A stretch of 64,000 bases of DNA from Rhodocytophaga rosea (GTDB lineage Bacteria; Bacteroidota; Bacteroidia; Cytophagales; 172606-1): the NCBI RefSeq assembly GCF_010119975.1, contig NZ_CP048222.1:5350501-5414500 (forward strand), read 5' to 3'. A program made the position numbers and the translations under genes. Under the pieces are notes generated by a model. That model ran no database searches. It was not told where the DNA came from and saw only the letters and a program-made list of their open reading frames with translations. This document shows positions 51,203 through 55,132 of the stretch, one piece after another. How positions within the stretch are numbered: the stretch's first letter is position 1; each line of letters opens with the position of its first letter.

Positions 51203-51622
51203 TTACTTAACAATAGTAATCCGTTTAGAGAAGGAATGAGAAGGAGTGGAGATTTGTAACAAATAAGAACCTGCTTTCAAACTATGCACCGGCAAACTGA
51301 GCATGTGCTCTCCTTGTTCCAGTTGATAAAGCTGTCCTTGTACCGGCCTTGATAACACATCGGTCAACGTCAACTTCACTTGTCCGGCCTGACTGGTAAA
51401 GAGTTTGACAGAAAGCTTATCTGAAACAGGATTAGGAAATACCTCCATCTGCAAATTAGCTAGTTTGCCTGCTGAAGCCACTCTGGCACCAGCACTCACC
51501 TGCATGATATCTACAAAAGAGATCTTGGCATTGACGGCATCAGGGGCAGGTTTGATGGTGAGTCTGCCATCGGTCACTTCTACCGTTACCTCATACTCAT
51601 CTACTTCATCATACCTGTCTTC
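51203..51622. repeat. Near-identical 3' segment shared by the two dehydrogenase genes (copy 2)
   Basis: Partner of 47636-48055; see that entry. Confidence 0.8.
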
Positions 51623-53956
51623 ATCGGAGAGGCGTTGATTTTCGATTAGTAAATGATTGATCTGATTAGTGTACAACGGATCGCTACAAACTACTGTAAC
51701 CTGATAAGTGCCATCGGGTAAAGCTATTTCCCAAATAGCATCACTACCTTTTATCTTTTGCATATGATTAAGTGTAAGGTAACGCCTGTCGTATCCTGCC
51801 ATTGGGTAGCGGTCTCTGGCATAAAAGGTAGTCTGATTCCATCCATAGCTAAAGCCATTGGCTCTATTGGCAAACACTTCTCCAATATCTGCTAAGTAAC
51901 CTGTAGGCGTGGTTGAACTAGAAGGCTGAAAGTTGATGTTGACCTTTACCAGATCATCTGGGGTGTCAACTCGTTTGAAGACAGCAGTATAGGTGAGATT
52001 ATCTTCTGGGAATGCAATGGTTTGGATGCGGCTTCCACCATGCTTCCAACGATCAAATATATACTCCTTACCATTCAAACTTTGGGTGGCAGCTGTCCCA
52101 ATCGAACGTAAAATACCTTCTACTCCATCAATGGAAGTAGGCGTAGTTAATGGTTTACCATCGAATGTAATAGCCAGTCCGGCAGGTTCAGTAGCAAAAT
52201 TGATAACAGAGGTTCTTGGATAAATATCCCGGTATATCTTGTGAGAAGCGCCTTTGGAATCTTTTACCGTTAAATATAACCTATACCATACACTTATTTC
52301 AGGTTCTCCTGTGTTAGGAATAACAAAAGTACCTTTCTTTTTTCCACTGCTTACTACTGGCATTTCATGCGTATGAGTATTGTGGTGGAACACGATATCC
52401 CAGGTAAAGGCACTGTCCGGCAGTTCCCCATCTTCTTCATCCGTAGCTGAACCTTCAAAAGAAAGTACTTGTCCTGCCTGATACTTACTCCCAGCAGTTG
52501 GGGTAATAATTACAGCAACCGGCGCATCATTATTAGTAGTGACAGACAGAATAGCTGCACGACTGGTTACACTTCCTGCGGTATTGGTTACAATCACCCG
52601 GTATTGACCTGCATCTTGAGGTTTTGTTTTCGAAATAGCATACTTTGCAGCCGTAGCACCAGGAATATCTTTTCCATTTTTTTGCCATTGGTATTGCAGG
52701 GTAGCTGTGCCTGATGCACTCACTGTAAAGGAAGTTGATTGTCCTTCAGCAACCGTAATATCATCCGGTTGGTTAGTGATTTGGGGTGCTTCTTGTTGTG
52801 TATAGGTAATTTTATACAAAATGCTATTCTTCCCATTCCTCGATAAATAGTACAAGTTGCCATCTGTACCTACCGTTAAGTATATATTGCCACTGCCAAG
52901 ATCAGTTGCGAAAGGAACTTTAACAGCGCTATTATTCAGATCAAGCATGGCAATCCATCCGTTACAATATTCCTGAAAAATATATTTGCCTTTATAGGAT
53001 GCAGGGTAATTAGTAGTAGCAGGGTTGAAAAATACACCTCCGGTAATGGCACATCCATGGTCATTGCCTGGCTCCAGAATACGCTGGTAAGAATAAAGGG
53101 GTGATACATAATCCGGATTTTTTCCTGGACCTTCTTCTGCCGGCCATCCAAAGTTAAGTCCGCCTTTGGTAGCATCATTTATTTCTTCGTAATAATCTGA
53201 ACCCACATCGTTAATAAATAATTTACCGGTACCAGGCTGAATATCAAAAGAAAATCCATTTCTGATTCCATAAGCCCAGATCCGTTTTTTCTGTTCAGAA
53301 TCATCTGCCCCTGTAAATGGATTATCAGAAGGTACACTTCCATCTGGGTTCACCCGGATAATTTTCCCGTGATAATTATTTAAATCCTGTGCCTGCTCTG
53401 GTTTGTATAAATCTCCGGTAGCTATGTATAATTTGCCATCTATGCCAAATTGAATCTGGCCCCCATTGTGATTAATTTCTGGTTTAATTTCATCGATCTC
53501 TACTATAACCTCTTCACTTTCTTTTTGTATAATATCTCCGTCGATTTTAAAGCGGCTTACCCGGGCATGTTTGGTTTTAATTATGATATAATACAGATAG
53601 ATATATTGATTGTTTCGGAAGTTAGGGTCGAAAGTAATACCTATTATACTTTTGTTGCCTTTGGTTTCAGGCTCAATTTCTATTGCAGGTTCGGGTAGTA
53701 GGTTTCCATTTTTTATCACCCGCAAAATAGCACCTTGCCCTTGTTCAGCCACAAATATTCGCCCATCTGGTGCAAAAGCCATAGCAGTTGGGGTATCAAG
53801 TGTTTTTACAATACTGGTTTGAGTAAATCCGTCGGGAAATTGCTGAGAAAAACCTGAAGTAATAGCGAAGATGGTAATCCCTATACATAAGTAGAACTTT
53901 ATAAAAAGCCTAACTGAACTTTTGAAAGTTGAAGAAGGCTGGTACTTATTTTTCAT
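51203..53956 (-). CDS. T9SS-secreted soluble glucose/sorbosone dehydrogenase, paralogue without PA14
   Basis: The 917-residue protein starts at MKNKYQPSSTFKSS (signal peptide to about residue 38); 14 further codons upstream are open. Domain order matches the neighbouring paralogue: propeller (about 40-385), Ig-like (390-475), PKD-like (480-590), small beta domain (590-665), malectin-like (about 670-825) and T9SS tail (840-917). The PA14 domain is absent and the flanking sequence joins cleanly at TAVFKRVDTPDDLVKV. It probably arose by tandem duplication; N-terminal regions have diverged much more than the 3' end. Confidence 0.9.
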   Translation of the reverse strand: MKNKYQPSSTFKSSVRLFIKFYLCIGITIFAITSGFSQQFPDGFTQTSIVKTLDTPTAMAFAPDGRIFVAEQGQGAILRVIKNGNLLPEPAIEIEPETKGNKSIIGITFDPNFRNNQYIYLYYIIIKTKHARVSRFKIDGDIIQKESEEVIVEIDEIKPEINHNGGQIQFGIDGKLYIATGDLYKPEQAQDLNNYHGKIIRVNPDGSVPSDNPFTGADDSEQKKRIWAYGIRNGFSFDIQPGTGKLFINDVGSDYYEEINDATKGGLNFGWPAEEGPGKNPDYVSPLYSYQRILEPGNDHGCAITGGVFFNPATTNYPASYKGKYIFQEYCNGWIAMLDLNNSAVKVPFATDLGSGNIYLTVGTDGNLYYLSRNGKNSILYKITYTQQEAPQITNQPDDITVAEGQSTSFTVSASGTATLQYQWQKNGKDIPGATAAKYAISKTKPQDAGQYRVIVTNTAGSVTSRAAILSVTTNNDAPVAVIITPTAGSKYQAGQVLSFEGSATDEEDGELPDSAFTWDIVFHHNTHTHEMPVVSSGKKKGTFVIPNTGEPEISVWYRLYLTVKDSKGASHKIYRDIYPRTSVINFATEPAGLAITFDGKPLTTPTSIDGVEGILRSIGTAATQSLNGKEYIFDRWKHGGSRIQTIAFPEDNLTYTAVFKRVDTPDDLVKVNINFQPSSSTTPTGYLADIGEVFANRANGFSYGWNQTTFYARDRYPMAGYDRRYLTLNHMQKIKGSDAIWEIALPDGTYQVTVVCSDPLYTNQINHLLIENQRLSDEDRYDEVDEYEVTVEVTDGRLTIKPAPDAVNAKISFVDIMQVSAGARVASAGKLANLQMEVFPNPVSDKLSVKLFTSQAGQVKLTLTDVLSRPVQGQLYQLEQGEHMLSLPVHSLKAGSYLLQISTPSHSFSKRITIVK

Positions 53957-54143
53957 AGTATTTGTATTTTGTTGGCGATTAATGGCTGATGAAAACAAAA
54001 ATAAAGCACTAAGTTAACACAAGTGCCTGAGACGAGAAAGCAGTTCCATGAAAAGGATTAGTTTCGTAAGTTATCTATTAATTTATGGCTTACAAAATGA
54101 ACACATTAATTTTTCTATCTGTAGAGATGTTACAATGGTAAAT

Positions 54144-54151
54144 TATATTTG
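54144..54151 (+). promoter_or_regulatory. Probable -7 box of the tyrosine leader transcript
   Basis: TATATTTG matches TAnnTTTG exactly. It would place the transcript start near 54158, about 40 bases before the leader-peptide ATG. No good -33 element is seen. Confidence 0.5.
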
Positions 54152-54198
54152 CAGTCTGCTAACTTGCATTTTTGTTAATTAAAGTACATATTTACCCC

Positions 54199-54267
54199 AT
54201 GAATAACTGCAGCAAATACTATTATTATCTAACCGGAAACTATACCCGGAAGATAATGCTTTGCTGA
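54199..54267 (+). CDS. Tyrosine-rich attenuator leader peptide
   Basis: The 22-residue frame MNNCSKYYYYLTGNYTRKIMLC has four consecutive tyrosine codons (TAC TAT TAT TAT, 54217-54228) and a fifth at 54241-54243, and ends TGA at 54265-54267. Length, position 27 bases before an intrinsic terminator and repeated regulatory codons are those of ribosome-mediated attenuator leaders such as the his and phe leaders. The downstream gene makes tyrosine. Confidence 0.75.
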   Translation: MNNCSKYYYYLTGNYTRKIMLC

Positions 54268-54329
54268 AGTTTGAACGCATTCAAAAAATTTACAAAAGCC
54301 TGGTCTTTCCGAAAGAGCAGGCTTTTTTT
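54226..54329 (+). promoter_or_regulatory. Attenuator: pause hairpin, antiterminator and terminator for the phenylalanine hydroxylase gene
   Basis: Pause hairpin (1:2): TATCT (54226-54230) with AGATA (54251-54255) and CCGG (54233-54236) with CCGG (54246-54249), starting at the last tandem Tyr codon. Antiterminator (2:3): CGGAAGA (54247-54253) with TCTTTCCG (54304-54311) and GCTTTG (54258-54263) with CAAAAGC (54293-54299), nested and collinear. Terminator (3:4): AAAAGCCTG (54294-54302) with CAGGCTTTT (54318-54326), inner CTTT/AAAG pairs and a T-run to 54329. The antiterminator shares bases with both other hairpins, so they exclude one another. Confidence 0.75.
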
Positions 54330-54394
54330 ATGCTATTTCCTCATACAACTTTCCTTATAAATAATCTGTTTATTAACTTATATGCACGCTTTTT

Positions 54395-55132
54395 ATGAAA
54401 CAGCAATATGACAAGTATACTGCCGACGACCAGGAGGTCTGGCGTATTTTATTCAACAGGCAAATTAAAAAAATGCCAGGTGCCGCTACAGACGAATATT
54501 TAGCAGGCATGAAGCGCATAAAATTTACTGCCGAACGCATCCCCGATTTTGATGAAGTAAATCAGATTTTAAAAGATATTTCCGGCTGGCAATTATATGT
54601 AGTACCAGGATTGCTGCCTAATAAGGAATTTTTTGAACTCATGAAAAACCGCAATTTTTGCGCTACTACCTGGTTGCGTAAAAAGAGCCAGCTGGATTAT
54701 CTGGAAGAGCCTGATATGTTTCATGATGTGTTTGGGCATGTACCGCTACTCACCAATACTGACCTATGTAATTTTCTGGTGGGCTTAAGTCAAATCGCTT
54801 TGAAATATATTGAAAATGAGCTGGCTATTGAGCTGGTTGCCAGATTATATTGGTATACAGTAGAATTTGGATTGATACGTGATAAAAATAAGTTGCGCAT
54901 TTATGGCGCAGGTATTCTGTCTTCTGCCGGAGAAACAGAGTACTCATTAAAAAGCGATGTTCCCCTCAGAATTCCTTATAACGTAAAAGAAATCATCCGG
55001 ACACCTTATATTAAGGATAAATTCCAGAGCCAGTATTTTGTAATTGATTCTTTCGAGCAGTTATTTAACTCAGTGGCAGATATTGATACATGCATTGCTG
55101 AAGAAATAAAAAATAGTCTTATCACTCAATAA
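54395..55132 (+). CDS. phhA: Phenylalanine 4-hydroxylase (aromatic amino acid hydroxylase)
   Basis: The 245-residue cytosolic enzyme is of bacterial monomeric length, with only the catalytic domain. The non-haem iron facial triad is H110 and H115 (MFHDVFGHVP) and E157 (YWYTVEFGL). Other family stretches are WQLYVVPGLLPNKEFFELMKNRNFCATTWLR split over 55-85, and YGAGILSSAGETEYSL. It converts phenylalanine to tyrosine with O2 and a reduced pterin. The upstream tyrosine-codon attenuator implies induction on tyrosine shortage, which points to tyrosine synthesis and not phenylalanine catabolism (inference). No pterin-carbinolamine dehydratase or catabolic gene adjoins it. Confidence 0.92.
   Translation: MKQQYDKYTADDQEVWRILFNRQIKKMPGAATDEYLAGMKRIKFTAERIPDFDEVNQILKDISGWQLYVVPGLLPNKEFFELMKNRNFCATTWLRKKSQLDYLEEPDMFHDVFGHVPLLTNTDLCNFLVGLSQIALKYIENELAIELVARLYWYTVEFGLIRDKNKLRIYGAGILSSAGETEYSLKSDVPLRIPYNVKEIIRTPYIKDKFQSQYFVIDSFEQLFNSVADIDTCIAEEIKNSLITQ

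Follow-up and report, generated by a model that had tools for sequence, protein, structure and literature searches.

A predicted tyrosine-sensing leader-peptide attenuator upstream of the phenylalanine hydroxylase gene phhA in Rhodocytophaga rosea and related Bacteroidota

Introduction

The trp, his, phe, leu, thr and ilv attenuators of Proteobacteria share a common design, in which a leader ORF rich in the regulatory amino acid is combined with mutually exclusive 1:2, 2:3 and 3:4 RNA pairings and with an intrinsic terminator before the structural gene. Mixed leaders are also found among them (thr, ilv). The phhA leaders described here are alike in all these respects; they are unlike the proteobacterial systems in sensing Tyr or Tyr plus His, in controlling phenylalanine hydroxylase, in belonging to Bacteroidota, and in a leader ATG that coincides, or nearly so, with the predicted transcription start. 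Within Bacteroidota, the Bacteroid-trp RNA is a Trp-codon leader attenuator. Described as a cis-regulatory trp motif of this phylum (RF01692; Weinberg et al., 2010, PMC2864571), it comes from the same phylum as the phhA leader but is named for trp genes. In Flavobacterium psychrophilum, likewise a member of Bacteroidota, leader-peptide attenuation of amino-acid operons was predicted from transcriptome data, and the available portion of that report names no tyrosine or phhA case (PMC9723704). A precedent for a leaderless leader peptide is trpL of Sinorhizobium meliloti, whose leader ORF begins at the transcript 5' end (PMC7298713); it differs in its Trp codons, in its target trpE(G) and in its alphaproteobacterial host.

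Herein, a window of 64,000 nucleotides (the whole stretch of DNA that was analysed) from the complete 8.98-Mb genome of Rhodocytophaga rosea is considered, for which a sequence-only reading had proposed a tyrosine-sensing attenuator in front of phhA. Phenylalanine hydroxylase makes tyrosine from phenylalanine, and the bacterial enzyme is commonly regarded as catabolic. In Echinicola vietnamensis, a member of Cytophagales that also has prephenate dehydrogenase, a tyrosine-biosynthetic role of this enzyme was derived from mutant fitness data (PMC7311316). That case shares the enzyme family, the order and the inferred role with the present one, and the available part of the study describes no regulation.

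Organization of the phhA leader region

The leader peptide reads, in order, M N N C S K Y Y Y Y L T G N Y T R K I M L C stop (Table 1), so that the 22-codon frame with four tandem Tyr codons plus one more noticed in the sequence-only reading is present, the fifth Tyr codon (54241-54243) lying apart from the tandem four. The terminator with a T tract after the leader stop is present as well, its stem starting 26 nt past the stop. The two antiterminator blocks described earlier were both found in the window sequence, CGGAAGA (54247-54253) pairing with TCTTTCCG (54304-54311) and GCTTTG (54258-54263) with CAAAAGC (54293-54299). The leader hairpin also exists, but its extent is larger than had been noted: it comprises an outer helix (54210-54216/54260-54266), a middle helix beginning at the third Tyr codon (54223-54230/54251-54258), with the third and fourth Tyr codons in the stem, and an inner CCGG helix (54233-54236/54246-54249).

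The downstream gene encodes a phenylalanine 4-monooxygenase that scores 287.5 bits against the equivalog TIGR01267 (cut-off 264.75) and 280.3 bits against NF008877 (cut-off 247), and its closest PhhA relatives are from Cytophagales. On the other side of the leader region lies a divergent gene (51203-53998, minus strand), so the leader terminator serves no upstream gene; among the window ORFs, no plus-strand gene besides the leader ORF is found between this divergent gene and phhA.

Table 1. Features of the phhA leader region in the Rhodocytophaga rosea window
Feature	Coordinates	Strand	Basis or remark
Alternative -7 element TATATTTG	54145..54152	+	Exact consensus; no TTG at 18-22 nt; ~40 nt 5' UTR
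Putative -33 element TTG	54164..54166	+	20 nt before -7 box
Putative -7 element CATATTTA	54187..54194	+	4/6 fixed positions of TAnnTTTG; 4 nt before leader ATG
Leader peptide ORF MNNCSKYYYYLTGNYTRKIMLC, then stop	54199..54267	+	Read directly from sequence; 22 codons
1:2 hairpin (protector)	54210..54266	+	Stem partly of Tyr codons; closes near stop codon
Four tandem Tyr codons TAC TAT TAT TAT, putative sensing site	54217..54228	+	Sequence; Tyr enrichment across loci
Region 2, antiterminator 5' half	54246..54273	+	Own-versus-swapped pairing test
Region 3, antiterminator 3' half	54285..54312	+	Overlaps terminator 5' arm and loop
3:4 intrinsic terminator (hairpin 54294-54326, T tract 54323-54329)	54294..54329	+	-17.0 kcal/mol
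phhA, phenylalanine 4-monooxygenase, 245 aa, regulated gene	54395..55132	+	Family match

Alternative RNA pairings and modelled ribosome positions

The RNA from leader to terminator folds at -41.7 kcal/mol, compared with -27.7 +/- 3.7 kcal/mol for dinucleotide shuffles (z = -3.8), and the leader ORF reaches a folding z of -5.1 against codon shuffles; the z-score of the window antiterminator is modest (-2.2). Plain alignment failed for the four nearest leaders. As the leaders keep their architecture but not their sequence, alignment was replaced by swap tests, the partner region (region 3 in the case of the 2:3 pairing) being taken from other loci and compared with the locus's own sequence. Over 50 loci, the region 2:3 duplex averaged -23.0 kcal/mol for own against -17.1 kcal/mol for swapped partners (p = 1.6e-8), and region 1:2 averaged -20.5 against -14.2 kcal/mol (p = 8e-8), both p-values being optimistic because the loci are related and each was counted separately. 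From one locus to the next, the three competing pairings are rebuilt from different sequence, in line with the compensatory changes for which the earlier reading had proposed to look.

In the ribosome model, the A-site codon plus 12 nt were masked and the transcript was folded before the terminator 3' arm exists. The antiterminator probability in the window was 0.67-0.68 when the ribosome occupied Tyr codons 7-10, 0.24 without a ribosome and 0.01 at the stop; the corresponding medians over 50 loci were 0.67-0.72, 0.44 and 0.15. The folding check suggested at the outset was thereby answered in favour of a switch, with 0.68 at the Tyr run against 0.01 at the stop codon. When the full-length RNA is folded to equilibrium, the terminator wins at every ribosome position; the informative state is therefore the co-transcriptional one, and the switch would have to be kinetic, the read-through decision falling during transcription, as in classical attenuators.

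Altogether, the phhA leader is very probably a ribosome-mediated transcription attenuator sensing charged tRNA-Tyr, and all the sequence tests that the first reading had proposed lend support to it. We infer translation, stalling, read-through and the response to tyrosine as follows. Transcription would start at the leader ATG or a few bases upstream of it, and the 22-codon leader would be translated. With tyrosine plentiful, the ribosome would reach the stop and cover region 2, and the 3:4 terminator would end transcription before phhA. With uncharged tRNA-Tyr, it would stall on the four Tyr codons and break the 1:2 hairpin; region 3 would then be captured by region 2 while region 4 is still to be transcribed, and transcription would continue through phhA. 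The conversion of phenylalanine to tyrosine by PhhA would close the feedback loop.

Promoter position and probable leaderless translation

The -7 consensus of Bacteroidota is TAnnTTTG/TTTG (PMC7366714). In a first scan, TAnnTTTG was found upstream of the leader in 24/50 loci (2.3 in shuffled sequences), and a -7-like box with at least 5/6 positions and a TTG 18-22 nt upstream was found for 25/50 leaders (shuffled mean 0.7). An exact box near the leader is present in 29 loci; when all in-frame leader ATGs were considered, it ended 4-6 nt ahead of one of them in 24 of these. In the window, CATATTTA together with its upstream TTG is a likelier promoter than TATATTTG at 54145, because a spacing of 4-6 nt between -7 box and leader ATG is the rule among relatives. 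The window box is weaker than in most relatives, and locus L031 carries the identical CATATTTACCCC directly before its leader ATG.

Since the -7 box lies just before the ATG, the RNA from which the leader is translated is probably leaderless or nearly so. Such mRNAs are rare in the phylum, accounting in Bacteroides and Flavobacterium for only ~4-6% of the total (PMC7366714, PMC9723704).

Recurrence of tyrosine leaders upstream of phhA

The sample comprised 192 distinct 600-nt regions upstream of phhA, taken from the closest matches in public genome contigs and from members of the same order. These were scanned without bias for amino-acid clusters in ORFs of 8-50 codons that begin with ATG and end 10-50 nt ahead of a terminator. 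Tyr clusters (at least 4 in 7 codons) occurred in 45 of the 192 loci, followed by Ala (6 loci), Leu (5) and His (3), and dinucleotide shuffles yielded Tyr clusters in 0-1 loci per replicate (mean 0.1). The leader stop and the terminator hairpin are separated by 23-41 nt in 49/50 loci. Examples include MNFSAQNYYYYYYYREASCFG (L176), MNSKYYYYYYYRITPFG (L033, Fulvivirga), MHLFSQSYYYYYPTCQP (L031) and MNNTYYYYYLSAPFG (L074); within the family of the window, a leader from the same genus reads MKFTRTYHYAYYHARKHL... (L083) and two others read MIRTSNQYYYYYGYRED... (L086/L087). Tyr runs persist in diverse phhA leaders that differ in their remaining residues and in RNA sequence, which bears out the conservation of Tyr runs that had been put forward as a check. 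No Tyr leader was detected in about three quarters of the sampled phhA loci, nor in a sister genus (g2) of the same family as the window.

A phylum-wide sample yielded one further clear Tyr leader from beyond the order (L274, AATYYYYSNRYRLE). It also revealed His/Tyr leaders, missed by the Tyr-only rule, in two genomes (L273, L276) belonging to family f19. Many phylum genomes outside the order have a divergent aromatic amino acid hydroxylase of ~590 aa instead of the 245-aa type; in the four copies checked (L296-L299), no Tyr leader precedes it.

Histidine codons and operon content

In many relatives, phhA is followed by hisH and often then by hisA (TIGR01855, TIGR00007). Under a cluster rule admitting both Tyr and His, at least two His codons are present in the cluster in 16/18 leaders before phhA-hisH and in 0/25 other leaders. 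In the earlier Tyr-only set, His-codon leaders were found in 11/13 loci with hisH and in 1/35 without. The contrast also holds within genera: the window leader, with no hisH adjoining phhA, stands against L083 (hisH; YHYAYYH), and in Marivirga, L036 and L039 (no hisH; NTYYYYY) stand against L045 (hisH; NHYYYYH). L086 and L087 are exceptions, having hisH yet no His codons. On the PhhA tree, the hisH and His-codon traits each need about 5 changes, and a strict independent-pairs test of their link gave 3 supported pairs. All or almost all of these are concordant and no pair runs the other way, but the number is too small to reach significance.

Furthermore, leaders of a Cyclobacteriaceae type that are dominated by His and contain 1-3 Tyr precede phhA in L034, L035, L046, L054, L055, L059, L061, L068, L273 and L276 (e.g., MNPTPRTFVHHSYYHLR and KKIYLNISHHHHSVQG), with hisH after phhA wherever the downstream sequence was at hand. 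These His-dominated leaders are predicted to be a combined His/Tyr attenuator. An Echinicola congener of the species with published fitness data (L048) has a phhA leader containing QYHSYYYHYF. Seven consecutive Tyr codons are found in L033, where genes for a PLP-dependent aminotransferase and for prephenate dehydrogenase come after phhA, and in L170, where tyrA and an aminotransferase-like gene lie just downstream of phhA. It is likely, on this pattern, that phhA serves tyrosine biosynthesis across Bacteroidota and is regulated by leaderless attenuators whose codons follow the operon, with pure Tyr where phhA is alone or with transaminase and tyrA, and Tyr plus His in phhA-hisH-hisA, one leader reading two amino acids.

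Several neighbouring genes were recorded in addition. The genome of the window has two hisH copies: L269 (G000:C1:4363361-4363951) is a stand-alone hisH of the biosynthetic type, away from phhA, with no leader detected, and L268 (4896673-4897263) adjoins a gene of a likely surface-sugar cluster, as judged from neighbouring ORFs. In sister genera (L084, L086, L087, L001/L085), phhA lies just downstream of trpA, as judged from ORF sequence, and in L033 and L048 it lies downstream of DAHP synthase, like the trpA loci an aromatic-biosynthesis neighbourhood.

Discussion

Several other readings of the leader were weighed. In the window, the modelled antiterminator forms with the ribosome anywhere from codon 5 to codon 13, so that stalling nearby on another codon would work too, and the leader might be a general sensor of translation rate or starvation, with a Tyr run of no special importance and an antiterminator opened by whichever ribosome stalls. 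Across loci, however, only Tyr is enriched, plus His where hisH is in the operon, and the remaining peptide varies, which makes such a sensor very unlikely. Chance is another candidate: among 30 of 34 pattern matches examined, the genome has 7 in-frame cases of an ATG with a four-Tyr run, including the phhA leader, so an ordinary intrinsic terminator might have met a short ORF by accident, phhA being transcribed from a promoter downstream of the terminator. This is exceedingly improbable, given that the leader, its structure and its spacing recur in relatives, that the divergent upstream gene needs no terminator there, and that TAnnTTTG is found 0 times in 3349 nt between terminators and phhA starts across loci. 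Motif scans locate promoter motifs upstream of the leader and none downstream of the terminator, which speaks against a transcription start beyond the terminator, a finding that the earlier reading had named as refuting. Sequence inspection by eye found no obvious terminator downstream of other in-frame Tyr runs in the genome (L224, L233, L237 and L238). A structured leader with a terminator ahead of an amino-acid gene could also suggest a metabolite-binding riboswitch or a T-box instead of a translated leader, but the window contains no Rfam match at or above the gathering score of its family, and under permissive settings the leader gave sub-threshold matches only, including Phe_leader (RF01859) and Thr_leader (RF00506), whose 16.2 and 22 bits fall well short of the cut-off (55). 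Moreover, the Tyr run is kept across loci while the RNA sequence is not; this reading is extremely unlikely. The Bacteroid-trp covariance model (RF01692) likewise has no match in the window or in the whole genome.

A different question is what the attenuated gene does. A gene opened by tyrosine shortage should make tyrosine, and the predicted attenuator therefore points to a role of PhhA in tyrosine biosynthesis in the bacteria that bear it. The genome of the window also encodes TyrA, HPPD and pterin carbinolamine dehydratase, which makes room for a catabolic route and for another source of tyrosine; with TyrA and HPPD present, PhhA is neither the sole tyrosine route nor clearly separate from catabolism. 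The attenuator might then be real and PhhA mainly catabolic for phenylalanine, with tyrosine acting as an end-product brake. Against this, there is little physiological reason for tyrosine starvation to open a catabolic gene, HPPD lies 1.3 Mb from phhA, and phhA of relatives adjoins trpA, DAHP synthase, hisH-hisA or tyrA. In addition, by hand count, about 12 of 27 leader-bearing Cytophagales genomes are without a TyrA (PF02153) match, and in those genomes PhhA would be the only recognisable tyrosine route. A mainly catabolic role is accordingly judged improbable beside a biosynthetic one. A correlation between Tyr leaders and missing TyrA is not claimed, since weak PF02153 matches make the counts unclean.

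The mechanism proposed for phhA is that of classical leader-peptide attenuation, and its Tyr specificity and phhA target were found to be apparently undescribed in the open-access literature. The sequence-only reading had known of no described tyrosine-codon attenuator before this gene, and none, nor any attenuator at phhA, was found in a search of that literature, subscription papers being mostly outside its scope. The less usual traits of the phhA attenuators are probably their leaderless start and their Tyr plus His leaders, two points that go beyond the first reading.

A regulator that opens phhA on tyrosine shortage argues, from sequence alone, for a tyrosine-making enzyme in many Bacteroidota, and extends one published fitness result to dozens of species. 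Tyrosine thereby joins the amino acids read by leader peptides, and the match of Tyr and Tyr plus His leaders to their operons, even within a genus, provides a natural experiment on the codon-sensing rule. For annotators, the type of leader offers a simple predictor of PhhA function.
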